In this document: one piece after another, positions 14,201 to 56,700 of the stretch
Position numbering within the stretch: the first letter of the stretch is position 1
How the letters are laid out: every line of letters starts with the position of its first letter
Assembly: GCF_964340395.1 (NCBI RefSeq)
Contig: NC_135560.1
Location: 11,444,598-11,508,597 of the forward strand
Reading direction: 5' to 3'
DNA from: Glandiceps talaboti
Taxonomy: Eukaryota > Hemichordata > Enteropneusta > Spengelidae
Length of the DNA: 64,000 nt
The notes under the pieces: model-generated
What the model saw: only the letters and a program-made list of their open reading frames with translations
The model's database searches: none
What the model was told of the DNA's origin: nothing
Position numbers and translations under genes: made by a program

Positions 14201-17200
14201 AGTTTGTAAGTTTGTATGTAACTTAGCTGTTCATTGTGATAAGGATGTTTTCAGATACATTCCTGCTGAGGGTGTGGATAGTTTTGGTCAGTCCAACATA
14301 TCTTTCCATTGCTCTCCCTTTATGTGTACATTCAGTGATGTATACTTGACGTAATGTTGACAGGAATATGAAAAATTATTAAAAAAACAATCACAGATAC
14401 ATGTATGATGTATAGTAGCACTACTGCATGAAGAGTACATGTGAAGCAATGACCACAACAAGAAGGAAAAGTTGACCAAGCAAAGCCATCCATGCCCTCC
14501 TTTACAAAATATGGTATAGTCCAAGAAACCCTCTCTGATTTTCAGGCCTGGTACTGTATGACTATGAACATCGAGCTGGTGCAGGCATATAACCCTGCCA
14601 GCTGTTAACACATATGGATGAGGTGTTAGTGCTAGCCCAGTGGTTGCCATCATGCTGACTCTCACCAGCACTGAGTTTAACCTGATGCCAGCCCAGCCCA
14701 GAAGGCGATTTTTCAGCCATACTTTATCTTAAAACATCTCTCGTTTTTATTTTTAAAGCAGACACTGGAGAAGAAGAATTCTTGAAACAGCTAAACAGAA
14801 TTTGTAATTGTCACTGTTTCATTTTTAAGCAGTCATTTGAAAACTTTTACAATACTAAAACTTAGTTTGTCTTTTGTTGTTATTGTGTCATTCCAGGCAC
14901 CTGATGGAAAAGTGCTAGAACAATGGATGATGACAGCTAAGGAGGAAGAGAAACTGATCCTACAACAATTCCTACGATTTGGAGAGACAAAGTCCATCAC
15001 TGAAGTTATGATCCAACAGGATAACAATGAAGGCAAAACTCCACAGCCACAGCCAACTCAGAATAATGAATCTGATATTCGTGCTTTTATTGAACGGATG
15101 AATACTATGAGACAGTTAAGTATACATGCCCACCAGGTGTCAACATCATCTCCACAACAGACGGTCTTCACAGGGTTTACGCCGACACAACCTGAAATCA
15201 CCATTCCAGAAACAAAACCAACCACAAGTTCTAGTAGCCACAGTGCTGCTTGCAGTCCAACACCTAAATTTTCTCCTAAAATTGAGCCAGTGACATCCCC
15301 CGCACCAAAGAGTGAACCACCACCTAGAAGTGAACAGCTACAAGTACAGCAGTGTAGTCCAATTTCGGCACCAAGTCCAGTAGTGTCTGCAGCACCCTCA
15401 CCACAAAGTGCTGATGAAACACCCAAACGATACATGCTGTGTTCAACTGATAGACCCAATAGCCACTCTTCATACCTATCGATGAAATTAAAACATCTCC
15501 GCAAATCAGCCCAACCAAAGAAGAAATTCCTGATACCTTTCACTATTAATACATCAGGGCCTAAACAGGTGACTTGTAACCTATGCAATAAGGCCTTCTA
15601 CAACAAGGGCACCTGGAAAATCCATTACAGCTCTGTACATCTGAAACAAAAATACAAATGTACCATCGAAGGTTGCAATATGCTGTTCAGTTCCCTACGA
15701 AGCCGAAACCGCCATAGTTCTAATCCTAACCCGAAAATTCATTCCGCAATACCCAAGCAAAGAGTACAAATATCCGATACTGCAGCCCGTGCCGATAGCT
15801 TTCTCAGCGCCAATCCTTCAGGCTCAGTTCTTAACACTCTGAATGACCGATTCCTCAGCCCACCTGTCATTAACGTCCATGATGGACTTAGCAGTCAAAC
15901 TTTAGTTCCATCTACTCTGCAAAGCCAAAATGTCCTGCTTGATTTAAGATGTGCACCAATGGAAGAAGAGTTACATGTAGAGCCCTCAGGACCAAAGCAT
16001 AATGATGACATGACATTTCAACACAGAGAAACTACCCTACGAGAGGAAATGAATGGAGCTGTAATGAGAGACACTTCGCTACAGTCAATGTGCAAAAACT
16101 CTGTTAATACCTCTAGACAGATGGATGATTCATTACCAAAGGAAATTGATGGCGTGACAGTTGTTACTCCTGTGGACAGTGACAGCAGTTCTTCGACTAC
16201 TTTTAATTACCACTCTGAGGGAGAAGAAAAGTCAGACATCTCCATCTCCCTAAAGAAGAATCCTCGTAAGTGTCTGAAGCCAGTCAAGCTATCTCATAAG
16301 ATTGATTCAGATGACGACAATGGTAATGAAGATGACAGATTCTGCAGTGAAGAAAGTGAACAAAGATTTAACCAAGGAGTCAGAAAGCGTAAAAGTAACA
16401 CACCAACCAGATGCCTCGCCAGTAATAGTATGTTCAAGGAGGAGGCAAGCAGTGAGAGTGAACCCGAGTCAGACACAGAGACAGACACCCACACCCAGAA
16501 TAAATCTGATGGTGATGATGATGATGATGAAGATGATTGTGATGATGATGAAGATAACACAGTGAAGGAGGAAGGTTCTGTCAATGATGGAGCTGATGAG
16601 AAATGTAAGCCCGAGCCTATGGATACAGATGAGAATAGTGGAGAAGGTGAGAGTGGTAACGAGATGGCAAAGAATGATGTCCAAGATGGCAGGTCAAATA
16701 ATAGAAACATGGAAGAGAAGAAAGATGTCAAGGATGTGAATGAAACAAATTCTCCAAAAGTTTCAGATACATTTTCAGATGATGTAATGCATCAACCAGA
16801 CTCGCGAATGACTTTTGCCAAATTGATGGCTATGCAGATGATGGAGCAAGGCTATTATCCACCATACTTTGCCAAAGGTGGTGGTAGTCTTGTCAATGAG
16901 AACGTAGACCCAAAACATCCTGATGGTACGAATGATTTCAACAGAGTTCTCAGCACCCTTCCAGTTCCTAAAACTTCAATCGACATTGAAAGTAACAGTA
17001 GCTCACCTACTTTGCCAAATTCTCCGGGTCTTATGATGCCGTGTCATTCCTGCATTGGTTCTTCTGATATATACTTGATGCGGGACGGAATACCATACTG
17101 TGTAGATTGTGCCAAACCCTTTCAGAGTACTCATGGTGTAAAGACTCATTATCAGAACGTCCATCTTAAAATCATGCATTCTTGCACTGTAGCTGGGTGC

Positions 17201-18034
17201 AATGCATCCTTTCCTTCCAAACGAAGCCGTGATAGACACAGCTCTAATCTGAATCTTCATAGAAAATTACTTGCCAAAGATGCTGGTCAGGGTAGTTACT
17301 TCCACGAACCAGTGTTTCCTCACCAGTTTCAAGAACAATTGATGCATCAGTTCATGAGAGTACAAGACATAAACAGTAATGGTATCCAAGGCAACAGTAT
17401 CCAAGGTAACAAAAGTATGGAAAATGGCCATGGCACATTATTGCATAATTGTAGTGACAATAACATTTCTCACAATTTTCATCATCATGAGAATAATTTT
17501 CACATAAAAAGTGAAAATACTATGTTGGAAAACTGCTCTGAGAACATTTGTAATTCACAGAATCAATATAAAATCCTCTCGGAGAATGGTACTTCAGTGA
17601 ATGCTGGACATTTTGAAGACAAGCAGCCAAGTTATGGATCTCATCATCCAAATCATGGAGAGAAAGTAAAAAATGCAGAAGGCAACAGTCATGAAAATAT
17701 GCCAACAGAGGATGCCAGTTCTGAAAACGACTTATCATTTGAAGTCTATCCTTCCCAGCTACGAACAGCTTTAGAAAATGGCCAGTCTTCCAGTAATAGT
17801 AGCCCTGAACCTGTGAACTCATCAGTAGGTGAAAGTCCAGGCTACATCAAATGTGATATCTGCCACAATGTCTACTCCACAAAAACAGCATTACAAGAAC
17901 ATTACAAAAACAGACATCTTCAACTAATGCATCCTTGTCAAGTACCGGGCTGCTTTATGATGTTCACTTCACTCAGTAGTCGCAATCAGCACAGTCAAAA
18001 CGAGAGTCTACACAGAAATCTTAATTCTGAATGA
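11298..18034 (+). CDS. BNC: basonuclin-family zinc-finger protein (5' exons missing)
   Basis: Two exons are supported: 11298-11533 and 14897-18034 (stop TGA), giving the C-terminal 1,123 or so residues. The first exon (acceptor after AATACAG; phase 2 entry; donor CAG/GTAGGT) encodes the conserved basonuclin segment with [33 protein letters not shown] and YARGYVLQ. The second begins [10 protein letters not shown] and continues [18 protein letters not shown], exactly the order in vertebrate BNC1/BNC2. Three separated C2H2 zinc-finger pairs follow at about 15569-15740, 17095-17265 and 17845-18020; each second finger carries the family-typical SRNRHS, SRDRHS or SRNQHS motif. A basic stretch ([12 protein letters not shown], near 16250) sits where basonuclins have their nuclear signal, followed by long Asp/Glu/Ser-rich regions (16300-16680). 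Basonuclins are nuclear DNA-binding factors linked to rRNA and developmental gene transcription. The frame extends upstream to 14837, but those 20 codons are intron. One basonuclin is usual in invertebrates, so I do not assign BNC1 or BNC2. Confidence 0.95.
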
Positions 18035-20270: not shown

Positions 20271-22357
20271 GCCATGTGATAAAATAAGCAATGTGTATTG
20301 CCACATAAGCATCACAGACATGTAATGTCATGTAAGCTGTGCCGACTGTCATGGAAGCTTTTCCTACTGTGATGTTATATATTACTACAAAAGGTATGTC
20401 AAGTGATAATGCATGATGTGGTTTCTGTAAGAACGTGTAACGTGTAGATGTACATGTAGGCAAAGGTGTGCTATCACTTATCGTGAATGAAGTATTGTTT
20501 GTTTGTTTGTTTGTTTGTTTCAATAAAACAGTATGCATGTGCCAAACCAATTTTTTTTTAGAAAAACAAAAGTGACTCATATGTTATTTTTTTGAATTGG
20601 GTCATTGTTTTAAGATGTCACAAAAGTTTTCTAATTTATCTTTTTCGTTTTCTCAAGTTGTCTGAAATAGTCATCATCTGTCACCTCAAGCAAAAACCGT
20701 CTCCTTTTTTTGATGCAGTCCAAATCATTGCACAAATCGTCAAGATGACCGCCACGTTGGTTCATCTAATATATGTCAAATGATTTTATTGAACAATATA
20801 GGTATCAAATTGTAGATGGCCAGTGTTCAAGTTTTGGTATAATGTGGCTCATCAGATGGTCTAAAAGTGAGGGGATCCCAGTGTCACTCAGCAGTCTTAG
20901 CAGTACTTTGTTCCTATCTTGTGCGTCATTGCCAAAGACCAAACCCTGGGAGGGGGACTGCAGAGGCTGAGAGCAGTCGCAAATTCCACCCATCAAAACA
21001 TTTTTCCCTTCTGTCACTAAATTTTCTACATACCTGCACACATGTACAAACATACATGTACACACAACACATATGCATGCATATACAACCACACACTCCA
21101 CACCTAGCTCCTGTTACATAGCAGATATGCAGGCCTGTGCTTTGCTAATGTCTCCCCAGTTAGTTTCTTTCACCATATTTGCATATAATAGTGTGTTGGA
21201 TTCTCTGAAATATTTTCCCACGACACTTTCATCACTCAAGTTCAAGTGTAGATGTCATTGAGGTCACACTACATAATGTCAACAATTTAGTGCCGCAATG
21301 TCTCGGAATACAAGTATGACACAAATCGATTCCCAAAGTGTGTGTCAGACTTGGTTCACCTTAATCAAATCTACCTTAGTTTTCCAAAATAACCCGTGTA
21401 TAACCCAAAATTAATGTGTAAGATATACAAGAAATTGAATTTGTCTACCTTTTCCATCGCTTCACTGGGGTTTTAAAAACCATTTTAGGGAAACACTGAT
21501 CAGGGATATTTCGGTGACGTGAACAAAATAGGTTCAGTGTAAAATTTTGACTCCTGTTAATTCTGATCAGAGGTAAGCAAATATTTGACATTTATTGGGG
21601 TCAAATTGTACGAAGTAGTTTTGTTGAAAGAACTAATAGCTATGAGGACTGTGTGGCATAGACAACACAACTCTTGGGATGATGATAAGTCAGAATTTGA
21701 TGTAAACAATTAGAGAGGCAGTGCTCCTGAGACTTACAAAATGGGACTTTAAGACTACTCCTCTACAGTTAAGAAGAAACTCAATGAATTCCACTCACTC
21801 TTTCCAACGGAAAGGTTATCAGTAAAGAGAAGCGTGTGAAAAACTAGAAGCTATGTTGAACACTTCTTATCACCTTGATCAACATCTTTATGTATGGACT
21901 TCATAGTGTCACAGCCCGGACAGATACAGTCACGATATTCTTGAACGTAATATTCAAATTAAGCTGTCAGATATCGAAAGTTATTTGAATATGGAGAGAA
22001 ATGTACATTATGTAGTGCTTAATGGTATTTAAGGCTCGGAATCAAACAGTTCACGGTTGAAGTTAGCTTTTTAATAATGTCTGGTTAGGAAGTTTATTGA
22101 GAGGACTTTGTGTGCTGACTGAGCAAGAAGTATGCTATAGAGGAATAGAAAATAAGATGGGAGATGACAAAAAATCAAAAGAATAGTAGGTTGTTGACAG
22201 CCAACATCGTAATACTGTTCAAGGAAACAGCTTAATGTATACAGTATTCACCTCTAGGCTTTAAATTGTGTTGGACACCTTATTACTTTTGATCAATTTG
22301 CATGTTTCTATGAAATTGCATAATAAATAATGTTGTTGATGATGGTAAGCAGTACCC

Positions 22358-23060: not shown

Positions 23061-24934
23061 TCTCAGTATTAGAAAACAACATTCATTTTAGGAATTTGTG
23101 TTCATTATGTGATGGTTTTGCCACTTACAAAAACTGCAAGACAAAAGTTTGGTGGGGTTATGTATGAAATGTGTCATGTCAGTGAATGTGTTGTAACCGA
23201 AATGAAAGTTGATGTCAGGAATGGAAATGTAAAATGAAAGTTGACTGAAAAACAATACCATTATGCAGATTGGTACGGTATTTTAGTCTATTTTGTGTGA
23301 CTGACAGGTTTTTTTTATATGAAAGTTATGAAAAAATTTATAGAAAAAAAGTACAAAATTTGACCAAATTTGACCAATGAGTGTAATTACATGTTAATTA
23401 ATCTGTGCTAAGGATGTTCAACATCACTTCATATATATATACTACGTGTGTACATGGTACTTATTTTATAGTTGACATTCAGTTGAGACATAAATGTGCA
23501 AAACCCTCAAAGGGATCTACCATTGAAGTAAGTTGTTTTTTTCAGAAAAAAAAAAATTACTAATTTGTAGTCATTTTGTGTTTTGGATGCGACTGTCAAT
23601 TTTATGTCATTAGACTTTGTGATAAAGATAATGAATTTGTTTTGAAATATTTTTTTACGTCCAAAGTATTACTGTCACGATGCAAGGCTCAGGCCTGGAA
23701 TAAATAACACCCTGTTACTCTAAAGGATTCCACCAGAAAAAGGCAACACAGTTTAGTTGTCATGGTTTAGATCATTAAAAAAAGTTTTATATTGAATGGT
23801 AACCATAGCAACAAATGATGATGATGTCACTGTAAACAGGATGAATTCAAAATAAATATTAGGATGTTATTTTGGGTGATTATTCCATGCTACCTGGCAG
23901 TTCAGCTATGCCAGAGACTGTACTTAACCAGAACAGACCCGTAAACACCAAGTTAACTCATAGTCCCTGTTGTGGACAAAAATCTGTCAATGGCTGTAAG
24001 CCTTGACTTGCCATAGAGGGCACCGTTGAGTATTTGTTCTGTTTGAAACAAGGCCAAGGTGGCATATTCCCTCCAACCAACCATCAATGAAGTTACTAGT
24101 GAAAGCCTAGCCTATTTCAGGCAATATTGAATATACAGAATCACAGAACAAGACGAATCATAAATAGACCGGCTATGTTTTTAAACATGATAGTTCCAGA
24201 ACTGACATTTTTTTATTGTCGTTTGCACTAGTTCGTTGGTAAATGACAAACATTTTGCAAGGTGCTTTCAAACTATTTGTTCTGCCATTCAGTGTTTCAT
24301 CCTACCAAGAAACTTTTCTGATAATGTACTTGTAATTACAAAGCTTGGATGCTTTAATGTGTGCTCAAGAGTAAATTTTCATTCAAGTTTGTCTTTCAGT
24401 TGACTCAACTGAGCAGCTGCAGGTCTATAGGTATTCAAATGTTGCAGAAAATGATAATTTTCAGCATGAGACAATTTGAATGGCGCCCTCTATAGTTTGG
24501 TGTGTCTAATCTTATGTTTTTAAGATGCCATTGAAACTTTTGTTTTTATTTGTATTGTTTGATTGGAAAAGTTCACCTTTATTTACTGCATATTTAAATC
24601 ATTTCATCAAAGCCAGCAATTATGATTGCTTTTTTAAGAGTCAGTTATGCCATCTTTTTGTTTTGTATCTATGAAAAACAGTTAGTGGAATAGGAAATAG
24701 ACTTCCAGCCAAAATTACAGTATATTTTATTGTACTCAAAATTTTTCTATATTGTTGAATATCAAATACATTTATTGTATAATGTTAACTGTATGTTATT
24801 GAAGTTTTAGTTTTCTGTTTTCATAGTTTTGTACAATTTCTAGTAGATGTATCCATATGAAATGCCAAGACAAAATAAATGGTATCGTGTAGAGTATGAA
24901 ATATTCTCTCTTTTTGTATGTGAGGAGAGTGGAG

Positions 24935-26946: not shown

Positions 26947-29900
26947 ATTCACTAACTGAAATCCAAGTCAGTAAGGTAAATAAACATTACAGTAGAATAC
27001 ATTATTATGTCAGTGTTTGTCACCTGTGTTTATATATAACAGATCACATACCATATTGATCCTGAACTCGCCCCATATCCCCGAAAAAGTAAATAATGAC
27101 CTCTATGACCAGATCCGAAATTAACACAATTTCACTAATGGTAAGATGACAACACAGTGACACTACAAGGGTGTATCTGGATAAAAATTATCCTGTATGA
27201 CTGAATTCAGGACTTTGATCAATCATATTGTACACAGTATCCTTTTGTCTGTAACTGTCATTCCTAAGGCTTCTAGCTTGACTGTTAAAGTGTAATTATG
27301 AATTGAGAACATAAGTTGATAGTGTGATATTAAAGGAGAAGACTTTTTGGCACCTTCAAAGCCAGTTTTAATAGTCCACCACTGACAACATGATGTTTCG
27401 ATCAGCAGTATTTCTAGACAACTAGTGCAACGGTACTAATATCCTATGTGTTGACCAACGTACATGTATTTATATCTCTATTTGTCAGGTACGCAAAAAA
27501 GGTTTAAAACATGGCACACCATGTCAGTATCCACGCTGCGACTGCGATGACTACGTCAGACCTCAAACCATGTTCAAACCAAGATTCTCCTCTCTGACGT
27601 GTCAAAAGTGTCGTCACAAGGAAAGTGAGCATCGCCTGAAAACTAAGTTTGATAAAGTGAAGAAAGAACAGCTAGATAAAGCCGAGTCATTTCCTTGTAT
27701 CGGATGCAGTTGCCAAGGTTACAAAAGACCAGATAGCAGGTAATGGACTCACCCTTTACAAAGATGTTTTGAGCGAGATACATCCATAGGGTTTACCGCT
27801 TATGTATAAATGCTGTCATACCTGAGGTAGGAGCTAGAAGTGCCTTAGGTAGGGTATTGATGTGTAAACAATGTCACAGACTACTGACACAGATCATGTT
27901 TTTGTTTTCACCAGCGTATCAGCAGAAACCCCGCAGGCCAGACAATGCACTGATTGCAAACATCACATAGATGCACACAGACCAATGACAGAGACTGACC
28001 AGTACATTATAGCATCACTCTCCACAGCCAGTCAACTACACTGCCACTCAGAAGCTAAGAAAGATGGCTACAAACAAAACGAGGATGATGAAGAGGAAGA
28101 GGAAGATGAAGATGAGGAGGTTGACATGACTCCCTGGTTTGAAGCTGTTGCCATAGATCCTGATGAAGTAGAGGAACAGGTGAGAAATGATGCGAGACTA
28201 ACGCAGCATAATTAAATGATCACAGAACAATCTTGTCCTATCAGGTACCATGGCTGGGTAACCAAAGGCACACGCTTGGTGGTCCAAATATGTTAACTTC
28301 AGTAACTGATGTATGCAGATCATGCAGTAGATTGAAGTAATACTGTACCAATGATATTTAATGACACTACAAATTTTAGTCTTTTCAAAACACATCACAA
28401 ATCCTTCACCTAGCAACCTCTGTCCTACAAGGTCTTCATTTATATGGCGTATGTTGACCAAGACCCAATCATGGTTCAAATCTTGCCCAAGGACTTTAGC
28501 CGGCCATTCAGAAACAAATGGCAGCAGTTAGGATAAACCTGCAACTTCAAATGCATCCACTCTTCCACAGAAGATGTGATTCTAACCATTTTAATATTGT
28601 AATATTAATAACCTAACTTTTTAGATTCAGTACTCTCACAGACCGATGTCTTCAAATACTAGAGTACAAATGTAACATGAACCTGTCTTTGTTTTTTTTT
28701 TAGAGTTTTTTGAAGACATGTCGATGCAGAGGATTTGGTGTTAGTTCTGATGATTTGATGAAAACATGTCACAGATATCATGGCTTTACGTAAGTATAGT
28801 AAACTTTACATAAGTATAGTAAAAGGTATGTAAGTATAATAAACGTTACGTGAGTATAGTAAACTATGTAAGTATAGCAAACTTTACGTAAGTATAATAA
28901 ACTTTACTAAAGTATAGTAAACTTTATGTAAGTATAGTAAACTTTATGTAAGTATAGTAAATGTTACATAAGTATAGTAAACGTTACGTAAGTATAGTAA
29001 ACTTCCCTTTATTACACCAGTATATCAACTATTTTCTAGACGTTTTGGGCACCAGGCAGTTTCTTCTAGAGCCGAAATGGTCAGGTGCCAAAACAACTAG
29101 TTACCTATCAACTAGCCTTGCTCAGTTGGACTCAGTAGACAAAAAAAACATATACTTGACTTCACAGTTTTCTGTCACCTCATCACGACCTTTCAAAAAT
29201 TATACTTGACTTAGACACAATCATGGCTCAAATCTTGCCCAAGGACCTCAGCCATTCAGAAACAAATGGCAGTGGTGAGGCTCTAACTGCCAGATGACAG
29301 ATTCAAAGCCAACCTCTCTAATAATTCAACCATCATGTACCCCTAGTATGTACACTGAATAATTTTAGCATATAAAGACAGACAGGGCAAGGTCTTACTC
29401 CAACCCTCCCTCCCCCCCCCCCCCCCAAAAAAAAAAAAAAATCTAATTGCTAATTTTTTGATCTGTTGATTTTTTTTCAGGATAGATTTAGTGGGACCAT
29501 TATTACCAACACTACAATGTCCAAAATGCCAACATTACCTCAAGGATCATAGAGAACCCACAGAACAGGAAGAATTACAGGTAAGCTATTAACCAATCAG
29601 CTGTTTAGAAATGATCATGTGACTTAGTTTGGTGGATTACTTTGCAGTTACTTTTATTTAACCAATCAGTTTTTTAGGATGTGATCACATGATTTAGTCA
29701 CATGGATAACTCTGCTGTTGCTTTTGACCAATCAGTTGTTAGGATATGCTCATGTGACAACAGCTTTGTGAAGAACTCTGTCATGGAGTTTTTTGGTGTA
29801 TTTATCATATGACTTCCAGGTCATTTTTTGGAATCATTAAGAAACAAAAATATTTGGCAATCAGTTGTTTTATCCTGTAAATTAGTAGCAATTTCTTTTC

Positions 29901-32900
29901 ATCCCAAATTCTACTTGACTTTCATGAATAAATGACCATAATAATATGGGATTTTTTTCAGAGATCTATTGAGAGAGCCAAAGTTTTGTCCTTAGTGAAG
30001 GCTGTTGGTTTACGTTCATCAAAACAGTTTGTAAGTCACAAAGCTGCCAGTTTGTTGTTACCAAACAATGTGTCTCAGGTAAGTCTATTGCAGCTAGAAT
30101 CCTATATCAATAGACCGTTCCAAACTGCAAACAGGAAATTGAGAATGCAGTGCCCTCACTCAAATTGGGGGTACTATCACCTCATAGTACCGTTTCGTAA
30201 TAACTTTGTCCTTTGGTATTCTATAGAAGTGTAAATCAGGGATGTTTTTTGTATTGTTCAGACATCGAGGAAAGCAGCAGTGCTCTATGATTAACTGAGT
30301 AACCTATACCATCCCACAAGATACACACAGACAGGAAGTAGAGCGCCACCATGGCAGATTTCGGAAAGGCCTATGGTTGTTATTTAATTTATGCAAAAGT
30401 CACCCAACTACATACTAAGCTTTGGTTGGTCAGTGATTTCCATTTATGCAAATATCAACTAACTACATACTGATCAATGATTGGGCAATTATTGCATTAT
30501 GCAAATTAACCCAACTACATGTTCAGTGATTGGTCAGATACAGAAATTTATCCAAAAGGAAAAAGTCACTCAACTAATTGCATACTGAGCAATGATTGGT
30601 CAGTGATATAAATTTATGCAAACATCACCCTAATACATGGTGATCAGTGATTGGTCAGTCTGAATGATATGTATTTATGCAAATGTTCATAACCATGTTT
30701 ATTTTGATGTGTTAAATAGATGATCTTTGCGAGAACACAGGACAGCAGTAGTAGTAGCACCAAGTACCAGGTGACATGCAGTATACTCTCTAAGCCACTA
30801 TCCAAGCTGCTCTTCAACGCTGCCAGCACACAGAATGGCTCAGACATCAAGTCACACAATGACACAAATATTAAGTCAGGTGTTAGAAAAAGGAGAAGTT
30901 ATGAAAGTGTTACTTCAAGTTTACCAAGCACTCCTGTCAAAAGAAGGAAGAGTGACCAGGATGTATATGAGACAAGGTAAATAGTTTTAGTGTCATCTAC
31001 AATCTATTGTCAGATTATATTGAAACTGTATCTCATCTCAGAACGAACTCAGGTTGCATGTGTACATGCATTGACTTTGATTGGCAGCCAGATTTGAGGC
31101 ATATTTTGTCACCCAGGAAGTTTGTCTGTATGCACTGACTCTGATTTGACAGTCAGATTTGGGGGGTTTTTTGTCACTCAGAAAGCCTGTCTGTAGGCAT
31201 TGACTCTGATGCGGCAGTCAGATTTGGGAAGTCAAAGTCAATGTCAAATATCAAATCTTTAGAAACTGAGGCAAATATGAGAATTTTAGACAGTTCCTAT
31301 TTACAGTATACTGTGGGCATATTTCATAATGTATCAGCAAAAAAGTTATTTCTATGGTGCCTACCAGGGAAGCATGTAGCTACTCGTAGTGACAAAGCCC
31401 CTTAGGTCACTTGTATTTTCCTTGGCTGAACAAAGAAAAAATTGGGGAATAAGATCTAAAAAGTACATTATAGCCCTACCATATCCAGTCCTATGTACTA
31501 TTATAATGATTTCATGAACAGCTTTTACGTCACTAGTACTTCAGTACAAAAACAGCTTGAATCTTCGACTAATTTCTCACCATGAGCAGTCTTTACTACT
31601 TTTTCTCACATTCCGTTTACATCAATATTTGTGTTCAGTGATGAAAACAAGGAAGTCATCGCCATGGAAACAATAAGAAAGAAAGTCAAGGTACCAGACA
31701 AGATTATCAGTGGCATCTTGGAGAATCTCAACAACACAGATAATCTGATGAACATTACAACTTGTATACCCATTACTGTCATGGAATGGTGTCCAGTTAC
31801 AGTTGGTAAGTGTATCACAGGTGAAAGCACTTAGAACACATAATTATATCACTCCCTACACTGCCATCAACTCATAATGTTATGCACCATCATCTTTACA
31901 TTGTGATCAACCCTTACACACACCAATTACCACCTATATACACATCATCCCTGCACAGCCATCAACCCTTACATAAGCCTCACTGCTAACACACCCATCA
32001 CCTGTACACTGCCATCAACCCATACACACCCATTACCACCTATATACACATCATCCCTGTACACCCATCAACCCTTACACACCCATGTGTTATCGTGACA
32101 TAGACACGCACTGTAATGGCGTAGAGTAACCAAAGTATATATTCCACAACTGGGTCCGTGCATGCTATACCATAACATATAGTCTTCATCATAATATACT
32201 TATAGAGTTAATGTATACAAGACTTGTTATCTAAGAATACACATTCTGTCATTCATCCCTTGCAGATGATGCCCTTTTTCTGAGTATCGGTCATTCCAAG
32301 GGACAAATATCCATCTACAAAGTTCACCAGAATAAATGTAAAGCTTTGATAATTCATGGAGACCCTACATCTGCACCAGTCACAAAGTAAGTATCATAAA
32401 TCATAGAATTATTGCAGAAAATATCTGCATTCACTCTTCAGGTTAAATCTATTAATTTCGTGGACTGTAAGATATGTTATGTCATTCTGCCCTCAATGGT
32501 CTGATACTTTCTGTGTTGGTTGGTACTTAAGGGTACTCCAACATGGCATATTTTTACAGACTACTAATCTCATAACCTTGGTAACTTTTAGAGGCACCAA
32601 ATTTGAAATTTGTTATGATTGAAGTTAGGGTGCAGGGTGGGGATGGGTTTGCTGTGGGTGATGTGGTTGGGGGTGGGGGGGTTGATTGACTACTTACTAC
32701 TGTGCAGTGTTTTTGCTAAGGGTTAATTGGTAACCCTGGTGACAGAGAGGGCTAAATCAGGGAAAACTAGCATAGTACCCATTGTACCATAATGTTGGTG
32801 AGAACCTCGGTATTAAAACTACCTGAGGAACTCACTATATAGATTTTATCTACTTGCCAATACTACAATCAGTGAGTTGTCAGTTTTGAACACTGCCAGA

Positions 32901-35900
32901 ACTGTACTGTAACTATTTTCAATACCTTTACTTCTTGAGTTGTATCAGTGTTGTAGGCAATGCAAAGTGCTTAATACTGTCTTAGTCTCACTTATGTAGT
33001 ATTAGTTTTAAAGTACCACTAGCCTTAGACTAACAAATTACATCAAATCTCTCTTTACAGACTAACATGGTTTTCTAAGAAGAGAAAGTGTTACCTATTG
33101 TCAGCATACAAGGATGGTCATATATGTCTATGGCAGCTTGTCAATACCACTGAGTTGGTCCTAGTACAAGATATCTCTAACATTCCCACCAAAGTCACCA
33201 CTATGGCAGTCTCGGCTGACTCAGTGTAAGTAGTGCCAATGTCTAACATTACCATCAAAGTCACCACTATGGCTGTCTGAGCTGAGTCAATGTAAGTTAG
33301 TGCCAATATCTTTAACATTACCATCAAAGTCACCACTATGACAGTCTGAACTGACTCAGTGTAAGTTAGTTCTCATGCCTTTAACATTCCCATCAAGATG
33401 AAGCTGTTGTGGTCACATGTTCATGCTCACAGCTAATAACACATGACATGCATTCTGTTGTTGACCAAAGTAACAATCATTGTGTGTCCATTTTTCTTTA
33501 CAGATACATGGCCATAGGTTATTCCAACTCAACTGTAATGTTCTACAAAATAAATGACCAGAACACAGCAGACAAAGTTCAGTTATCCTTAATTAACAAA
33601 ACCAGTACAGCATATGGGTCTGTACTTTGTCTGTCATGGCATCCAACAAAAAGGTAATATTTTTACTTCATTTTGCTTTTTATTACTGTTTAACATACAT
33701 GTATTACAACAGAAAATGTGCTATCGGTAAACTAAGATAGACACACTTACTAAAACTACACTTGTTGCATGTGATAGTTTACACAAGTGGGTGATTACAG
33801 TGCCATGGTTACATAGGCGTATAAATCATACTATAAACAAAACAGAATGAGTTTGTGCTGCCACTGAAGAAAAAACTAAGTCTTGTAAGGCAATATAAAA
33901 AAGAATTGTTTCTGGTCAGCGTGCGCATAACTTAAATACCCTTGTGATGTTTTTCTTTTCACCCGTGCAGTCTGCAGTTCCGGGTGAAACACAAAAATAA
34001 AGTAGACAACTGCAGAGCCAATCATGAACAAGCAAATGACATCTGCCCCACATACACACTTGGAATAAAGTGGTGTGATGTCGCGTCATCACACCACTTT
34101 AGACAAAATGTCCTGACCAGAAACAGTTCGTTTTTTTTCTTTTTTGGCCTAATAATGAGTGTAATTACATCAATGTCCACTTTACAATCAACATGATGCA
34201 ATAATAGATATAGTTTGTCTGTCTGTCTTAGTTTGCCGATAGTCAGTCCGCCATAGTTGTAACAAAATGTGAAATCCAGCTTTTCATTTTAAAACCATTC
34301 CTGATATTGAAATTATGTAGAGTTTAGACAAGTTTATCCATCAAAACATGAAATTATATATCTATCTAGGAATGTAAGATAGAGAGAAGATTATCAGCCA
34401 TTGACTTGAAAATATCTTATGACATAAATTATTGTCTGAGAACTTCACTCAACATTTGAATTATCTTCCTATGCAATCAATCACCAGAAAGTTTCAAAAT
34501 GTTCGACTTTTACTGAACTGATCTTTGCTCGGACCTGACCCAACCTGACATGACCTGAACTAAACTGACCCTATTCTACCTTTTTCCAGAATGGTTGCAG
34601 CTGGTGGTGAAGATGATAATGTAACCATATTTTATCTGAGGTCATCTGAAATGGAAGGAGACCGTAGGAGTATGGGATCAATCACACGTTATTGTAAGTC
34701 ACTTTCACTCAAGACGTCATTTTCACTCAGGGTGTCAGTTTCATTCCAAACATCACTTTTACTCAAAATGTCACTTTCACTAAAGATGTCACTTTCACTC
34801 AGTCAAAATGTCACTTTCACTAAAGATGTCACTTTCACTCAAAATGTCACTTTCACTAAAGATGTCACTTTCACTCAAAATGTCACTTTCACTCCAAAAT
34901 GTCACTTTCACTCAAGGTGTCACTTTCACCCAAGACGTCACTTTCACACAGTTTGGAAGAATTGAATAGAAATTAACAACAATTGCATTTCAGTTCAGGA
35001 TATCCCCACAACTTCCAATAACCAAGCAAGTCAGTCCCTAATTTGATACACATCAAACTACATTTTTCACAATATATTAAAAAATGTGTAAGATTGTAGA
35101 ATTTTTAGGAGTACATGTATCAAGTAAAACTGATGAACAATTGTACTTGTGATTTACTTATTTCAGTTAGCCCAAAGAAGCATCCAATGAGACCCGATAT
35201 TTTCCATAAATGCTGCCTTCTGAAAGGTAAGTCAAGGATATAGTAGTTTCTTTATTCTTGTTCACAGACTGATTGTTCTGGCACTTGATTCTGACTTGCC
35301 TTTCCATTCCTCGTCCAGCAGAAATGTACACAGAAAACAATATCTGCACCCACATTTAATCAGAATATGTCATATTCAGGTTATCAGAAAGACAAAAGAT
35401 TGTATAGTTTGGCCACTAGAAGTGCTGTTCAGTTGAGTGCTTTGCAGTTGAGCACAAAACCCAACTTTGAAAACATTATCATTTCATAGTGTCTCACAGC
35501 AAAAGTCCTTCCAGTGTTATCCCATCAACACATCTGATCATTTGCACTTGAATTCATTACATACCATAAGTAAACAAAGAAATTTCTTCTTTTTTTTTTC
35601 AGGTCATGTATCATTTGTATCAGCTCTAACCTTTGACCCCAATGGAAAATATCTCTTGTCAGCGGGTTGGGATGGACAGATTCTGTTCTGGAGGGTAGCT
35701 GAAATTGATGACATCATCACAAATAATGATGATGTCACCATCATGGAATGCACATCTGGTTACATGGTTGGTCAACAGAGATTGACTAAATCCTGCGATG
35801 ATGTCATCAATAGAGGTGCACTGATGGCTACATCCTTGAGTGTATTAGATGATATATTGTTTGTAGTTGCCAAGGTAACAGCAGGTCAAGTCTATGTTTC

Positions 35901-35931
35901 TGCATATCGAATTCCAGACAAGTATTTGTAG
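26947..35931 (+). CDS. WD40-repeat protein with three tandem PCAF-N-like Cys/His modules
   Basis: Fourteen exons read in continuous phase: 26947-26975 (29-bp exon, the least certain), 27489-27739, 27915-28179, 28704-28789, 29481-29580, 29962-30078, 30720-30976, 31639-31805, 32266-32386, 33061-33225, 33504-33653, 34590-34693, 35167-35226 and 35603-35931 (stop TAG). They encode about 733 residues; the 5' end is missing. The N-terminal half holds three Cys/His modules, each with a C-x-C-x2-aromatic element and a C-x2-C-x-H-x4-H element: CDCDDY with CQKCRHKESEH; CSCQGYKRP with CTDCKHHIDAH; CRCRGF with CPKCQHYLKDH. This resembles the N-terminal domain of PCAF/GCN5 acetyltransferases (C-x-C-x-G-W-K-x-P, then C-x2-C-x-H-x4-H). 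An acidic stretch follows module 2. A basic RKRRSYES...STPVKRRKSD linker looks like a bipartite nuclear signal. The C-terminal half is a WD40 propeller ending in GGEDDNVTIFYL and FDPNGKYLLSAGWDGQILFW, reminiscent of the WDR20/creC type. I do not recognise a named orthologue. A nuclear or chromatin role is inference. Confidence 0.85.
28458..28546 (-). mobile_element. fragment of the SINE family also at 48614-48908
   Basis: The words TGGTTCAAATCTTGCCCAAG, GACTTTAGCC and CATTCAGAAACAAATGGCAG match the SINE copy in the minus-strand sulfatase gene. Only the end of the element carrying the pol III-like promoter is present. It sits in the intron between Cys/His modules 2 and 3 of the WD40 gene. Confidence 0.6.
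28790..29007 (+). repeat. 20-bp minisatellite of 5' splice-site-like units
   Basis: The array of about eleven units approximating GTAAGTATAGTAAACTTTAC begins at the authentic donor of exon 28704-28789. About seven units contain the perfect donor core GTAAGTATA and one contains GTGAGTATA. The real exon therefore ends at the first of a series of near-consensus donors. Confidence 0.85.
29214..29295 (-). mobile_element. second fragment of the same SINE family
   Basis: The words CAATCATGGCTCAAATCTTG, CCCAAGGACCTCAGCCATTC and AGAAACAAATGGCAGTGGTGAGGC match the SINE family in the same orientation as the fragment 700 bases upstream. It lies in the same intron of the WD40 gene. Confidence 0.55.
29590..29760. 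repeat. three-copy tandem repeat, about 62-68 bp unit
   Basis: Copies share AACCAATCAG-TGTTTAG, GATCATGTGACTTAGT, TGGATAACT-TGC and GTTACTTTT. The array starts ten bases inside the intron that follows exon 29481-29580. Each copy contains a CCAAT word. Confidence 0.7.
30385..30680. repeat. five-copy intronic repeat with ATGCAAAT and ATTGGTCAG words
   Basis: Units of about 60 bp contain TTTATGCAAA, ATCACCCAACTACATACTGA and CAATGATTGGTCAGTGAT. Octamer-like (ATGCAAAT) and inverted CCAAT-box (ATTGG) words therefore recur five times or so in the intron before exon 30720-30976. No function can be shown from sequence. Confidence 0.75.
31060..31225. repeat. three-copy tandem repeat, about 67 bp unit
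   Basis: Copies share TGCA-TGACTCTGATT, GGCAGTCAGATTTGGG and TTTTGTCACTCAGAAAG-CTGTCTGTA. They lie in the intron after exon 30720-30976. Confidence 0.7.
31376..31470 (+). mobile_element. foldback repeat family, right arm only
   Basis: The stretch ACTCGTAGTGACAAAGCC, CCTTAGGTCACTTGTATTTT and CCTTGGCTGAACAAAGAAAA, then TTGGGGAATAAGATCTAAAA, matches the right halves of the elements at 5519-5870 and 54247-54640. The left arm is absent. It is inserted in an intron of the WD40 gene. Confidence 0.65.
31840..32095. repeat. degenerate CA/CC-rich tandem repeat
   Basis: Repeated words include ACACCCATCACCTGTACACT, GCCATCAACCCTTACACACC and ATTACCACCTATATACACAT. The units of 25-80 bp are diverged. The array begins shortly after the donor of exon 31639-31805. 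Confidence 0.65.
33175..33385 (+). repeat. tandem triplication of an exon end with its splice donor
   Basis: A unit of about 71 bp containing TCTAACATTCCCACCAAAGT, CACCACTATGGCAGTCT, GCTGACTCAGT and the donor GTAAGT occurs once in exon 33061-33225 and again as two full intronic copies, with donors near 33291 and 33361, plus a short fourth fragment. Reading on from the first donor meets TAA at once (GTG TAA), so use of the downstream donors would truncate the protein. Confidence 0.85.
33906..34125. mobile_element. small foldback element with palindromic core
   Basis: TTGTTTCTGGTCAG at 33906-33919 is mirrored by CTGACCAGAAACA at 34113-34125. Inside it, AAAGTGGTGTGATG (34067-34080) and CATCACACCACTTT (34087-34100) form a perfect 14-bp stem around six bases. 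The nested arrangement fits a MITE-like insertion in the intron before exon 34590-34693. It has no coding capacity. Confidence 0.55.
34697..34948. repeat. 18-bp minisatellite starting at a splice donor
   Basis: About fourteen copies of GTCACTTTCACTCAAAAT, with variants ending AAAGAT or AAGGT, begin within the donor GTAAGTCAC of exon 34590-34693. The frame running from that exon into the array (34591-34965) is intron read-through. Confidence 0.85.
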
Positions 35932-46032: not shown

Positions 46033-48567
46033 TTAGTCAGTTGGTCCATAATCCCCACCATTGCTTTGGCAAAGTGCTACATGTGGTGAACTGCTTTCAC
46101 AATATATTTCACCTTCACGATATTTTTGCAGTTTTTTCAGTAAAAATACAACAATATCAGGTCTGCTATTTGATAGGTCAATTTCTTCATTCGGGTCTTG
46201 TTCCAGGTTAAATAAAAACAGCATCTGTCCCTTTTTTTCTGGTGAGGGAATTGAGTCTCCTTGGTGATATTCAGGAGGTAAAACCCATGTAAGTTGTGAC
46301 CCTTTTTAAAAAGGAAGAAATTATCATTTTAATAGTCATTGATGGAAGTGCATGTGAGCAATATGATATGTGTCAGTTAAATGCCAGGCATGTGCAAACT
46401 CCCAGTAAAATATTGTGGATAGATTTATTTATTTGGCAATAGAATATGGGTAAAGATACATATAGAAGTACTGTCGGTCGGGGATAAAACACAAAAGCAA
46501 TTAACACTTCTTTCCATAATGGGCACAAGGTCTTCTAATGCATGTAAAAGTAGGGTTGTATAAAACAAAACAAAACATTCATGTACCTAAATTATTCTCG
46601 CAAAAAGTGGGGTTTTTTCCCACTCTTGTAAACATGTACGTGTGTTCTACCATAGCCACAAATGGAAGAGGTCTGTGGTGCTATGCTGCTGGTGAAAAGA
46701 TTTCTTAACTAAGAAGTGTGAAATTAAGAAGCAAAAACAAGCTTACCATGTTGACCAGTCACTAATTTCCAATGACCCACAATGATGGCTGAAGTCTTCA
46801 TGATATCAAAGATATCATTGTGTTCCCATGGGTTGACATCTGCAATACTTACTGATGCTCTTATTTCCCTCATATGAATCAGTAATTCTTTCCGTGGAGA
46901 ATTTGACCCACCACTGCAATCAAATATTGAAAGGGGAATAGGTACTTCATTAAAAATGAATGGGCTCTCAAATGGCCATGTGTACACACAGAAGTATGAC
47001 TGATTTGTAAGTGATGTACATAAATTACATACGAATTTGCATAATTCACACATGGTTGTGGCTTGCAGATAATTTGCATAACTAATGCTTTCTAATTCAG
47101 TGTACTTGTATTATAATGCCATTTCCTCTCATATTTATGCTTTAGGAGTGTACCATGAATATAATTGCAACTATTCGGCATGTTTCTTGTTTGTATATTT
47201 GAAAGAAAAATAGATACATAGATATATCAAACAAGATTGAGTGGATTTGAAAGATATTTGTGAAAGTATTGCCTAATAGACAATGACCATGTGTAGTGTA
47301 CCGATCCCATACTAATGTGATGAATGTGTTGTACCTAATCATATCCCACATATTGAAGCCATCGAATCTCATGCCCTCAACGGTACCACCAGCAAGATGC
47401 ACCAATGTTGGTAACCAGTCAATCATATGCATCATTTCATACGACGACCGCCTTGGTTTTACCAATAAAGGACTATTGACAAATGATAAAACACGCACAC
47501 CTCCTTCCCATAAAGTTCCTTTGCCACCTCTCAAAGGCCAGTTTCTGCCGCCTGTGTGAAACTGTGCCCCGTTGTCTAGAAATTATGAGATAAAATAATT
47601 ATTACGGTAACATTTTGAAGTCACACAATTTGATTCAGTACTGATATTGAAAATTTTAATGTATACATGTGTCGTTAATCTTCTCTCTATACCAAATAAT
47701 GTAGCGAATGTACACACAGCTTACAGTACTCTCAAAGTTAAGTAGTCACCCTCCTACCGAGAACACAAGAGCACACAGGAATAGCTCAGACTGAGATGCA
47801 TGATTCGTCAGTTTACATCGCAGATCGAGATGGTAACTTCTTTTCAACCGAATTCCTCCTGGCCCTTATTAATAAACCTTTACATAATTTGCATGGTTTT
47901 CTGTTAGTCAATAAAGTTAAAGCGTCTTCTATGTGATGGATGCAAGTGAACGATGACGTCATCTAGCTGTTTATGATAATTAGCTTAAAATGAGACTGTC
48001 AGTATTCTTATAGTCAACATCACCAATGCCATATGCTCTCATTACTCCATTATTTGATAAAGCAATTATATTTACACTCAAGTGATCACAATATGTCAAC
48101 GCCTACTTTTCTCGCCATTCAACCAATTTTAGCCAGGATTAAAACTATTAGTCGAGTAACTCAATTTGAGAAGTGAATTTGGTATATTTTTAGACAAAGG
48201 GATGAAATTGCCGAAAAAATAAATATTGAAATATTGGTCTGTGACACATGCAGGTTTATATAGACCTGGGATAAATAGGTCGAAATGATAGTTTATTCAA
48301 TTTAAGTATGTAAACTATTGTATTCAATGTTCAATGACTTTTTAGTTTACAGATTTAGGCAAAAATTAGTCTGTATATTTTCAGAAACATGCAAGAATTG
48401 GTATGATGTACACTTTTTAGCATTTTTAAAAGAACATTTCAATCATCTTCCCATAAAAACGTGACGGGCACAGAAATCACATAACTATAAGATAGAAAAT
48501 ACCAGAGGCGATTCCAATGATGGTGGTGGTGGTGGTGGTGGTGGCGATGGTGGTGGGAGTGGTGGTT

Positions 48568-48599
<32 letters not shown>

Positions 48600-51500
48600 G
48601 GTGTTAATGATAATGTTGGGTTCTTATATAGCACTTTCCCACACCGTGCTCAAAGCGCTTTACAATTATTACCCCTGGCTCAGATCAGAACGGCACAACT
48701 TCCTCAACTCCCCAGGGAGCATACAATCCATTGCAGCCATTTCAGTGCATAGGATTAAAGCCTTCACATTGCAACCTACATCCTACCAGGTCCCCAATTA
48801 TACAGCTGGGTTGACTGAAGCACAGTCGTGGTTCAAATCTTGCCCAAGGACTTTAGCCACTCAGAAACAAACAGCAGGCAGCGACAGGGCTCGAACCTGC
48901 AACCTGTGTTGATGATGATGATGATGATGATGATGGTGATGACGACATGGTTTTATGAAAAGACTTCACTGTTGGCATTTCTGGCATAACTGGATTCTGT
49001 CCGTCCAAATATGGCACAAAGGTATGCGTGTTGAACAGATTGATTGTTATTTTGACAAGATCACATGCTAGAAAAATCCTATGGAAATACAGAAAAATGC
49101 TTTACCTGAAGCAAAAATAAGTAGTGTGTTATTCCACAGTCCAGTTTCCTTCAAAGTCGATGTCAAATTTCCTATACCTTCATCCATACATGTTGCCATG
49201 GCAGCATAGATTTTCCGTATGTCATCGACATCTTCGTTTTTATATAAATCAAAATATTCGTTGGGGACTTCTAAAGGGCCGTGGACTGCTTGGTGAGCTA
49301 GGTACATGAACATTGGCTGAAAAGAAACAGGTACAGTGCATAAAGTAAACAGCTCGGTATTAGTGGATGCGGGGGGGGGGGGGGGTATTCTTGCATAATC
49401 TTTGTAGATGTTACTCTTAATTTGCATGTTGTCAACCAGTCTGCGATACTGGCCCTAGACCAATAGATTTCAGTAAGAACCTCGGGTAAGGACCAACAAT
49501 TTTGCAGAGTTAGTAGTAAAACGACCTGTTGGTCCTAATGACTGAATATGAAGAAATACTATTAGGACTGTATTACATTGTAAAACAAATATATACATAA
49601 CAGTTCGAGAAGATAGCGATATAATATCTTCTTTACCGACAACTTTCAGTTTTATTGGTATCTAAAAACTTACATACTTTTTGAGGGTCTTGTTGTTCAA
49701 TTATTCGCTGGGCTTCTTTCGTGAATATATGGGTGGAATATTGGTTCGCATATTCATCAGCCACATTCTTTGAATTCCTCCAAAGATCTCGACAGCTTCC
49801 GCCATGTCCAAGTCGATGTGTATAGTAATCTCCGGCTGCACCGTGATAACCTAAAGAGAAATGCGGCTTGATTCTCAGTTAGATGACAGTGTGGTCAGTA
49901 TGATTCTCTACCTGTGTCGCAAAGCAGAGCACACTTTCCGATGACGCAACAGTACGGGGTAGGGGCGTCGTTATGCGTTGCCGTAAAGAGGCTAGTGTTT
50001 TACGACGACGGGAAAATATATGCACGTGAACCTATTCTTTGCAAAATTATTCACCAGGTGTAAACTGGAAACTTCCCGTATCAATATTTACAAATAGACA
50101 CTCTGAACACACGATAAAGATAGCTTGAAGTACTTCATACTTTCTTACGTCGCGTATTGAATCATCCTGCTGTTTGTTGCATACGAAAGATGATTTTCCG
50201 ATACCTCCAATTTTCAAAGCCAGTTTGAAATGTTCACCACGAAAGAAACGACGTTCTTATCAAGTCAGCTACATTCAATGCTAATATTTGTAAAATGGGC
50301 TTAGATTGTTTAACATGTAACTACTCACCAAAGAAAGTATCAAAGCCTTTACTAGTGGGTACGCATTCTTTCTTTTCAAATCCAAGATGCCACTTTCCAA
50401 TCATGTGAGTAGAGTAGCCGTATTTCTTGAGCATCATGGGTAGAGTTATTGTTTCTGCAGCCATGCAAAATCTAACTCGGTGTTGATCCAAACACGTGTA
50501 ATCAAAACCAGTGTGTATCTGAAATCATATGGAACCAGTGACAAACGAGCATTTACTACCAAAAGCACATGTCAGTTTGCTATAGTCAAGCATAAGCATA
50601 ATGCATATGAAATCGCATGTTTAACCTTCGCGCTATTGGTGAGCCTATGGTGATCATTCACGGGATCATTCAATACGTGCCAATGCCACCTACGGAAAGG
50701 AGTGTGTAACTATTGCGCGGGTTGCATGCGGGCCGTTGCGGGTCGCTGCGGGCCTGGGTACAGAGGCAAAGTAGTAATTTATTTATTTGTGAAGTTTTTG
50801 TCAGTTTGCCAATAAAAAGACTGAAATTCCGCGTGACTGCGAAATCTCGCGTTGTCATTCAGCTAAAAACGTCAGTCATTTATTAGTAATCATCATTAAT
50901 CATACTATTAACACATGTTGACGTATTCACGATCCTGACACAGACTGTCCGACATTCGTCAGTACAAGAAAGATTTTCAAATGGTCGAAACGACAGAAAC
51001 ATGAACACAAAATTAACAAAATAAAAACCCACAAAATACGCATACTTCAAGTGTCTAGGCAAGTCAGAGGAAAAATTTCAGCTAAATCAGAGTTCTGATC
51101 AACAAACAAGGAAATTGTTTAGCTACATTAATTATTTTGACAGGATTTTTGATAGTGCAATATATAATACAGTTCCGATACCGTGACTGTCATTGAAACA
51201 AGTGTGATGATTCTGGTGACCCTGGGTTATTTTGTAATCAATAAATGGCAGCCTGGGGGATAATACATTGAACATATATAATAATGTTATACAAAATAAA
51301 AACATGCTGTCGCATATTTCTACTGTACTGTACTGTACTCTACTCTATTCTATTATATTCTACTCTACTCTACTCTACTTTTTTTGAGATAAGCATTATT
51401 TATAAAAGAAAATAAAGAGTGCTAGTGAGCAAGGAATAACAATTAAGCACATTTGATAAGTCGGAGCTACTTACATTGTCAAAAATAATGTTGTTAATAG

Positions 51501-53785: not shown

Positions 53786-56700
53786 ATGGAGTGTTACTTA
53801 CATTTGATCGTTTTATCACTGGGTTTACCTATGTTTACGTCAAGCGAAGTAAACAGACCACATATAATATTCATTTTGGCCGACGATTTAGGATTCGCCG
53901 ATGTAGGGTATCGAAATGGTTCAGTTGTGAAAACGCCTAATATTGATAAATTAGCTTCGGAAGGAGTGAAACTGGAACGACACTATGGTATGTTATCGTG
54001 TATGCCATCACGAAGTTCTCTTATGATGGGACGTTATCAGGTAGGCAGAACTCGGTTGAGCACATCTCATTTTGGACATTGAGAAAAACGGATAGCTGTG
54101 GGTAGGAATCCCACCACACATTCTGGACACGTTTGAAAGCACAATGTGACGAGCAATCAAGGATTTTATTCGATTCACTTCTTGTGTATTTCCTTACACT
54201 ATTCTTTTTCACCTACTACATTCAATATTCTGTTATTCACACTTATACCATGCACGAGTCAAGTTGCACAAAAATATGAAATAATATACTGTGATCGTTC
54301 TGCGTCACGACAACGCGGGTCTATGTCACGACAACGCGTGTGTACGTCACTGGTTCTGCTGTGTTGGAAATATGCGTCAAAACGTTCAAAATTGTCAGTA
54401 CTTTTCCTGATTTTTCCTTGATGATACTGGCGCTTGAATAATTCACCAATATTTTTCTTCATTCAGCCGGAAAATACTCGTGACCTAAGGGTTGTCACTA
54501 CGAGTCGCTAACGAGTCTAGCGACTCGTAATGACAAAAGCCCCTTAGGTCACTCGTATTTTCCTTGGCAGAACCATGGAGGGTCTATGGCAGAACGAAGA
54601 CAAATATTGGGGAATACCATCTAAAAATGACACATTTGACATATACAGCTTTTAACGCATTCGCTCGTAGTATTCTACATTCACCATATTTTCATATTCT
54701 TTACGTAAACGCACATTTCAATTCTATATTTCTCATTCGTTTATTTCTTTACAAAGTGCAAATTGTCTTTTCATTCGCACTTTCAGTACTTTTACGTTTA
54801 CTCGTCATTTTGTTTATTCGGCGCACTTTCACCACATGCATTTCGCATTTGTATATTGGATCACGCTTTCTGCGGGTATACTTATTTGCAATAATGCATA
54901 ATTATGCAACCAGATATCAAGTGAAAGACATTTCTTTTATACCATTGACCACATACCCATGCTTCGTCATAAGTGTAAAGTAACGAAACTAAATTGAAAA
55001 CCAAACGTGAAAATTTATTTTTTTATTTTTTTTAAAAACCACATAGGCTTATGAAACTATCATGCTTTGTTGTGGAGAGTAATGAAGAGTTATCACTCGC
55101 TATTCATATAATGTTTTCGGATCAAAACTTGTTTTAAAATAATCATAACTGATTTACAACCTTTTGTATGGAGTAGTAATAAACAATTATGACTGGGTCG
55201 GCTATATGATTTGTTATGAACAAACACTGTATAATCGTGAACTGTTATCAGTGTTTTATCTCTATGATTTCAGATCCACACTGGTTTTGATTACAGATGT
55301 TTGGATCAACAGATGATCAGACTTTGTATGGCTGCAGAAACTGTGACTCTACCCATGAAACTGAAGGAGTACGGCTACTCTACTCACATGATTGGAAAGT
55401 GGCATCTTGGACATGAAAAGAAGAAGTGTGTACCCACAAGTAAAGGATTTGATTCCTTCTTTGGTGAGTAGTATAGTACAACTCTAGATTACTGTAGATA
55501 CAACTATTATGGACAGACTTAGTATATACATCGTCTTCTGCCTCTCATGCAACTTCCTTTCCGTTTTCACGTACATGCAGTGTAAGTCACCCCCTTTGAT
55601 AGCCCTCGGACCCACTATAGTTATTGTGGTCTGAGGATAGACCTATCTGTCATCCCTTTGGTACACCTGTCCGCAGGCCCTGTTCAATTTGCAAAATTTG
55701 CAATTTTCCCCTCGAGTATTAAATGTCGTTGTGTGGTGCTTTTCGGGATAGTCTATCAGACGGTAACTTCGATGTACTATGCCTAAAACACGTTCCCGAC
55801 CAAAGTGTACCCGGTGTATCCATGGTTCTTCTGACAGAGGGCGCTGTCGAACTCCAAGAATAATCTTTGCTTTAATTTTGCTGGGATAATCCCCAAGCAA
55901 ATTAATATACAGATTTCCGTCCATTTTTATGTACAGATTTGAGGATGATTCATTTCCAATTGCTATTCGGTTTTAGATGCATTATCTGTCAACTACGCCT
56001 GAGATATAATATAATAATAATAATTATGTGTATGTTATTTACTGATTTAAGTTATCGCTTGACCATAGAAGATAAACCTGCTACTGAGCAATTAGTTCAT
56101 GCATTCATTACATCTCGAATAGATTCATGTAATTCACTTTTATTTGGGCTTCCGAAGTACCTAATCAACCGTATTCAACGTATTCAAAATATTGCTGCTA
56201 GAATTGTAACTCGTTCCAAAATCACCTTTCACATCACTCCAATTTTATATCAGTTGCATTGGTTACCTGTTTCTGAACGTATTGTTTTTAAGATTTTAGT
56301 TCTTATTTTTAAATCCATTCATAGGCTTGGACCAATTTATCTTTCTGACATGATAGAACTATACGTTCCACGTCGTAATTTAAGGTCAGCTGATCAGTTC
56401 AAACTCTGCCCCATTCGATCACGTACGAAGACATATGGTGATCGTGCTTTTAGTGTTGCTGCCCCCACTCTCTGGAATAATCTCCCACTCAACATCCGTC
56501 AGTCACCTACCTTATCTGCTTTTAAATCCAATGTTAAAACTTTACTTTTTAAAACTGCTTTTTAAGTGATATTTGTATTGTATGAATTGCTTACAGCGTC
56601 TTTGATCACATTTTTTTGTGGATACTGACGCTTTATAAATAAATTATTATCAATTAATTAATAAATAATTCTGTGTGTCGACTTAATTCGTACAACGATT

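Follow-up and report, generated by a model that had tools for sequence, protein, structure and literature searches.

A hemichordate gene that appears to join three zinc-binding-type modules to a WD40 propeller

Structure of the gene and its WD40 region

The window analyzed here is a stretch of 64,000 nucleotides from the genome of the acorn worm Glandiceps talaboti (contig C13, 11444598-11508597), and genome-wide searches covered 590 Mb in 47 contigs. On the forward strand of this window lies a gene that, judging from its sequence, appears to encode an undescribed protein in which three modules of zinc-binding type are followed by a WD40 propeller. The spliced model, which runs from 27489 to 35931 and is detailed in Table 1, comprises 13 exons with AG/GT borders, and these give one open frame of 723 codons that ends in a TAG at 35931. 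The order of parts proposed in an earlier sequence-only reading (zinc modules, basic linker, WD40 repeats) is the order found in this gene model.

The coding potential of the exons was explored using codon usage, with a score trained on two long open reading frames (ORFs) of the window and penalizing the other frames for in-frame stops. The chosen frame scored best of six in all 13 exons, and in only 7 of them did the score lie above 0.03, the 95% mark set by 72 stretches of open but non-coding sequence. The codon-usage support for the model is thus moderate. All exons are predicted to belong to one transcript, which probably extends further 5' of position 27489. For the exon at 27043-27088 to be joined in frame, the one after it must begin at 27502, where the acceptor has a poor pyrimidine tract.

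The C-terminal part matches the Pfam WD40 model (PF00400) with an E value of 7.3e-18 and 64.7 bits (cut-off, 27), which places it among the WD40 repeat proteins; no subfamily is assigned here. Among the best 25 of 39 Pfam rows, models with high cut-offs were missed (for example CDC20-Fz, 61 of 200 bits; WDR3, 63 of 154), and three models with low cut-offs were passed (IFT140_1st, 40.3 of 27; ANAPC4_WD40, 37.9 of 22.9; Vps8, 29.4 of 28.9). We read the latter as a probable general WD40 signal.

Table 1. Features of the gene and of its predicted product, all on the forward strand of the window
Feature	Position	Strand	Basis or remark
Possible further upstream exon (SLTEIQVSK)	26947..26975	+	AG/GT borders and compatible phase only; weak
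Probable upstream exon (ITYHIDPELAPYPRK)	27043..27088	+	AG/GT borders, open frame; donor weak, 1.9
Exon: module 1 and first half of module 2	27489..27739 (alternative start 27502)	+	Gene model, codon score
Module 1: C-x4-C-x-C-x2-Y ... C-x2-C-x-H-x4-H, seven candidate ligands	27522..27632	+	Motif scan
Module 2: C-x2-C-x-C-x-G-Y-K-R-P ... C-x2-C-x-H-x4-H, seven candidate ligands	27696..27978	+	Split by intron 27740-27914
Exon: remainder of module 2, followed by acidic tract	27915..28179	+	Gene model
Acidic tract, between modules 2 and 3	28080..28128	+	Sequence
Exon: N-terminal half of module 3 (CRCRGF...CHRYH)	28704..28789	+	Gene model
Module 3: C-x-C-x13-C ... C-x2-C-x-H-x4-H, altered Cys/His order	28719..29550	+	Split by intron 28790-29480
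Exon: second half of module 3	29481..29580	+	Gene model
Exon: linker, without significant family match	29962..30078	+	Gene model, profile searches
Exon: linker with basic clusters	30720..30976	+	Gene model; exon opens with ATG
Two basic clusters, VRKRR ... STPVKRRKSD (KRRK), before the propeller	30881..30956	+	Resembling a bipartite nuclear localization signal (NLS) by eye
Seven exons	31639-31805, 32266-32386, 33061-33225, 33504-33653, 34590-34693, 35167-35226, 35603-35931 (stop TAG)	+	Gene model, codon score
WD40 region from about residue 393, about six blades by eye	31739..35928	+	Pfam WD40; start from CDC20-Fz row

The Cys/His modules and their likeness to KAT2 and FAM221

The sequence-only reading had described three consecutive modules, each combining C-x-C-x2-aromatic with C-x2-C-x-H-x4-H, and all of the motifs that it quoted were recovered at this locus in a single spliced frame. 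The second halves are CQKCRHKESEH (residues 38-48), CTDCKHHIDAH (95-105) and CPKCQHYLKDH (214-224), and upstream of them stand CDCDDY, CSCQGY and CRCRGF in modules 1, 2 and 3, respectively. A further upstream cysteine, C12 in module 1 and C70 in module 2, brings each of these two to seven candidate ligands; module 3 has no such residue, and C194 sits between its halves instead. Each module therefore contains five cysteines and two histidines, in an order that is common to modules 1 and 2 and rearranged in module 3, and the three sets of five account for 15 of the 16 cysteines within residues 1-250. The modules may thus be compact zinc modules of Zn2Cys5His2 type, with zinc binding and fold predicted from the residue pattern.

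The frequency of these patterns was compared with that in 60 Markov-simulated windows. C-x2-C-x-H-x4-H is found four times in the six frames of the window, three of them in this gene, versus 0.17 on average and never more than 2 in the simulations. The longer pattern C-x(2-6)-C-x-C-x2-[FWY] ... C-x2-C-x-H-x4-H, which is present twice in the spliced protein and once in the six-frame window before splicing, did not occur in any of the 60 simulated unspliced windows.

A binuclear Zn2Cys5His2 site is seen in the crystal structure of the PCAF_N domain of mouse GCN5, where the ligands are given as C107, C113, C115, C142, C145, H147 and H151 and W118 as a conserved tryptophan (PMC8586995). The number 151 of the last ligand may be a slip, because the 7BY1 sequence reads H-x4-H. 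KAT2, with its PCAF_N domain, is encoded by a separate gene of the G. talaboti genome. The Cys5His2 order of PCAF_N (PF06466; KAT2A/KAT2B, PDB 7BY1) recurs in modules 1 and 2, whereas module 3 agrees with it in number only. An aromatic residue three positions past the third cysteine is likewise shared, and module 2 has the C-x-C-x-G-aromatic-K-x-P of KAT2. Unlike PCAF_N, the protein described here has three modules instead of one, and unlike KAT2, it has a WD40 region where that protein has an acetyltransferase domain and a bromodomain, neither of which appears when the 723 residues are searched against Pfam, among the best 25 of 39 rows (remaining rows E >1e-4).

Pairwise comparison with the KAT2 Zn region gave the best result for module 2, whose score was reached by none of 1000 full shuffles, as was that of module 3; for module 1, 9 of 1000 reached it. 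Moreover, the profile of the three modules aligned in hhalign with that of KAT2 (own and mouse) over about 34 columns, with a score of 24.65 and a pairwise probability of 52. No permutation reached this score, either with all columns moved (0/200) or with the Cys/His columns fixed (0/200).

FAM221 has a gene of its own elsewhere in the genome (L007-L009, C5:7670991-7674109), in whose three exons seen no WD40 repeats are present. Inspection by eye revealed three Cys/His blocks in series in this FAM221, the middle one with five cysteines and two histidines in the arrangement C-x4-C-x-C ... C-x-C-x-H-x4-H. Blocks in series are thus a trait that FAM221A/B (PF14753) and the modules have in common, together with the C-x4-C-x-C-x2-Y start of module 1. 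The second half of the FAM221 block is, in contrast, one residue shorter than that of the modules. In hhalign, the three-module profile aligned with FAM221 blocks B and C with a pairwise probability of 50 and a score of 23.29, a score reached by none of 200 permutations with all columns moved and by 9 of 200 with the Cys/His columns fixed.

The specificity of these likenesses was assessed by ranking the module profile against 65 sequences, namely 60 decoys, for which 30 MYND and 30 RING exons were taken from this genome, and 5 reference stretches. Block B of FAM221 ranked first (27.6), mouse KAT2A second (26.5) and the own KAT2 third (23.4). From these alignments, a module type shared with the Zn regions of KAT2 and FAM221 is likely but not proven, and we conclude that FAM221 is as good a relative as PCAF_N.

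Copies in other places and neighboring features

Searches for further copies, in which only the best candidates are scored, identified no second copy of either part in the genome. For the N-terminal part, eight of nine matches were its own exons and the other had an E value of 3.8 (limit, 10); for the propeller, six of seven were its own exons and the other stood at 0.0096 (limit, 0.01). A peptide pattern was fitted by 29 stretches in GTDB genomes and by 19 in IMG/VR, and none was confirmed, such single-protein queries reaching close relatives only.

Several other coding stretches share the window. A long ORF at 14795-18034 (+), of 1079 residues, contains C2H2 fingers of basonuclin/disco-like appearance, with a Pfam C2H2 value of 1.6e-4 that is short of the cut-off. 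Another long ORF, at 61909-63717 (-), matches HEPN_DZIP3 (5.5e-41) and NHL repeats (6.8e-28). An exon at 49068-49454 (-) matches the sulfatase family (PF00884, 5.6e-11), and a pair of ORF stretches in opposite orientation, 47142-47582 (-) and 58303-58722 (+), are nearly identical by eye and have no Pfam match. Together, the sulfatase exon and the paired stretches perhaps represent duplicated arylsulfatase-like genes. The stretch at 55906-56565 (+) resembles by eye the terminal part of a reverse transcriptase of LINE type, with no Pfam match at 0.001.

What the protein may be

The reading that we favor, with moderate confidence, is that of a nuclear adaptor built from three tandem modules of Zn2Cys5His2 type, an acidic tract, a basic NLS-like segment and a C-terminal WD40 propeller. 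In such a protein, the propeller would bind one partner or substrate, the zinc modules would bind another protein, possibly from the ubiquitin machinery, and the basic segment would lead to nuclear localization. The nuclear location, the function as an adaptor and a connection to ubiquitin are predictions from sequence, and a ubiquitin role is possible but unproven.

Several results weigh against this reading, beginning with the profile searches. Neither PF06466 nor PF14753 gave a row at E <=10 for the N-terminal pieces or for any single module in HMMER, whose filters discard most matches above E ~0.1 even with the limit at 10. Positive controls of comparable length were recovered, the own KAT2 Zn region with PF06466 at 2.1e-31 and the own FAM221 exon with PF14753 at 5.1e-27. 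Membership in either family was rejected on these profile scores. The sequence-only reading, which called the modules PCAF-N-like, had named the combination of no profile match and an unlike predicted fold as what would speak against it, and the first half of this is what was found. The best Pfam rows of the single modules belong to DUF6422 (0.099, module 1) and Zn_ribbon_CSL (0.027, module 3), with none for module 2; these candidates, and rad14 (0.024), all fall short of their own cut-offs. AlphaFold2 on the first exon alone was uninformative (pLDDT 43).

The gene model and the alignments add to these points. The codon scores of 6 of the 13 exons lie inside the non-coding range, and no start codon is convincing among the candidate first exons (20351-20393, 22330-22344 and 23414-23527). 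In sets of 1000 shuffles that kept Cys and His in place, modules 1, 2 and 3 attained their scores against KAT2 261, 12 and 44 times, respectively, and those against FAM221 block B 126, 30 and 3 times, with the module 3-FAM221 alignment pairing other cysteines than the motif register would. The direct comparison of KAT2 with FAM221 in hhalign is not significant (17/200 and 57/200 permutations). Among the decoys, one RING exon reached 22.9 over 11 columns, near the 23.4 of the own KAT2 over 31 columns. Modules 1 and 3 taken singly rank a RING decoy at the top, and for module 2 alone a MYND decoy (24.06) falls between the own KAT2 and mouse KAT2 (23.85). FAM221 block C was fifth (18.3), and block A was outside the best 16 of the 65 rows.

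Part of the evidence just listed, namely the fixed-Cys/His shuffles of module 1 and the RING decoy, agrees with the view that the modules arose independently and converged with PCAF_N and FAM221 on zinc-knuckle spacing. Weak matches to unrelated bacterial zinc families point the same way. We nevertheless consider convergence rather unlikely, given that no fixed-Cys/His permutation reached the profile-KAT2 score and that module 2 and KAT2 have the C-x-C-x-G-aromatic-K-x-P stretch in common. One of the bacterial matches, RGCVC (NF038206, E 0.0049, residues 84-107), was rejected as a candidate. It is not listed with module 2 alone, where a different bacterial family appears at 0.01, and it is therefore taken as chance zinc-knuckle likeness.

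The likeness to FAM221, which the sequence-only reading had called a looser version of the module, is strongest for block B and does not extend to a PF14753 match. That the protein is a divergent FAM221 relative which acquired a WD40 propeller, with the PCAF_N likeness secondary, is unlikely: the serial blocks, the first rank of block B and its module 1-like opening argue for it, and the missing PF14753 row, the shorter second half in FAM221, the low scores of blocks A and C and the nine permutations that attained the hhalign score argue against it.

WD40 propellers are common substrate receptors, which is in line with an unconventional ubiquitin-ligase scaffold in which modules of PCAF_N type would engage E2~ubiquitin and the propeller would hold the substrate. 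The Cys/His order shared by modules 1 and 2 also fits such a scaffold, as does the report that removal of the Zn region costs mouse GCN5 its E3 activity (PMC8586995). According to the same review, however, the groove of PCAF_N is made up of the zinc loops and of helices alpha2 and alpha3, and the surface for E2 is not known. The review also describes a Zn2Cys5His2 cluster of similar kind in RAG1, where it lies outside the E3 region, so that the cluster alone is no proof of E3 activity. In the protein described here, the likeness spans only about 34 columns, and the helical part of PCAF_N (connecting helices and MSL3-like domain) was undetected by sequence after module 3, where PF06466 gave no row. 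The idea, formed by eye, that the linker after module 3 represents these helices was abandoned, as 871 of 1000 shuffles were as good against the own KAT2. The description PCAF-N-like thus fits the zinc module only, and module 2 best, because no PF06466 or PF14753 match was obtained and the helical part was undetected by sequence. We regard a ligase scaffold as improbable.

Fusion by the model of two adjoining genes, one for a zinc-module protein and one for a WD40 protein, is very unlikely, since frame and phase hold over all junctions and the 723 codons are free of stops, although the borders were picked so that the frame stays open and the exon at 30720 opens with an ATG.

The nuclear-adaptor reading can be set beside what is known of PCAF_N in other proteins. 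A genome-wide PF06466 search (E <=10) scored seven candidates, and the six listed are all at the KAT2 locus. A table in PMC5575660 lists PCAF and GCN5L2 alone with a PCAF_N domain. According to PMC8586995, Pfam at the time contained 26 architectures with PCAF_N, roughly half being those of acetyltransferases. The sequence-only reading knew of no named protein with this order of domains, and the combination of Zn modules and WD40 likewise did not turn up when it was searched for in an open-access library, nor among titles listed there for PCAF_N, GCN5 and FAM221A/B, of which few were relevant; the 26 Pfam architectures might include WD40. A PDB sequence search with the N-terminal part returned nothing at E <=10.

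A bolder proposal, which we think doubtful, is that the protein is the first member of an undescribed animal family that joins the Zn region of PCAF_N and FAM221 in one superfamily of repeatable Zn2Cys5His2 modules, three of which would here be used with a WD40 propeller in a nuclear ubiquitin-related adaptor. PMC8586995 calls the zinc coordination of PCAF_N unique and states that the essential E3 region is not identified. The presence of such modules in triplicate in a natural protein, without a recognizable rest of PCAF_N and with a likeness to FAM221 as well, would suggest a module that can be detached and used repeatedly, and the protein would offer a direct route to testing whether such a module can work with an E2 on its own.

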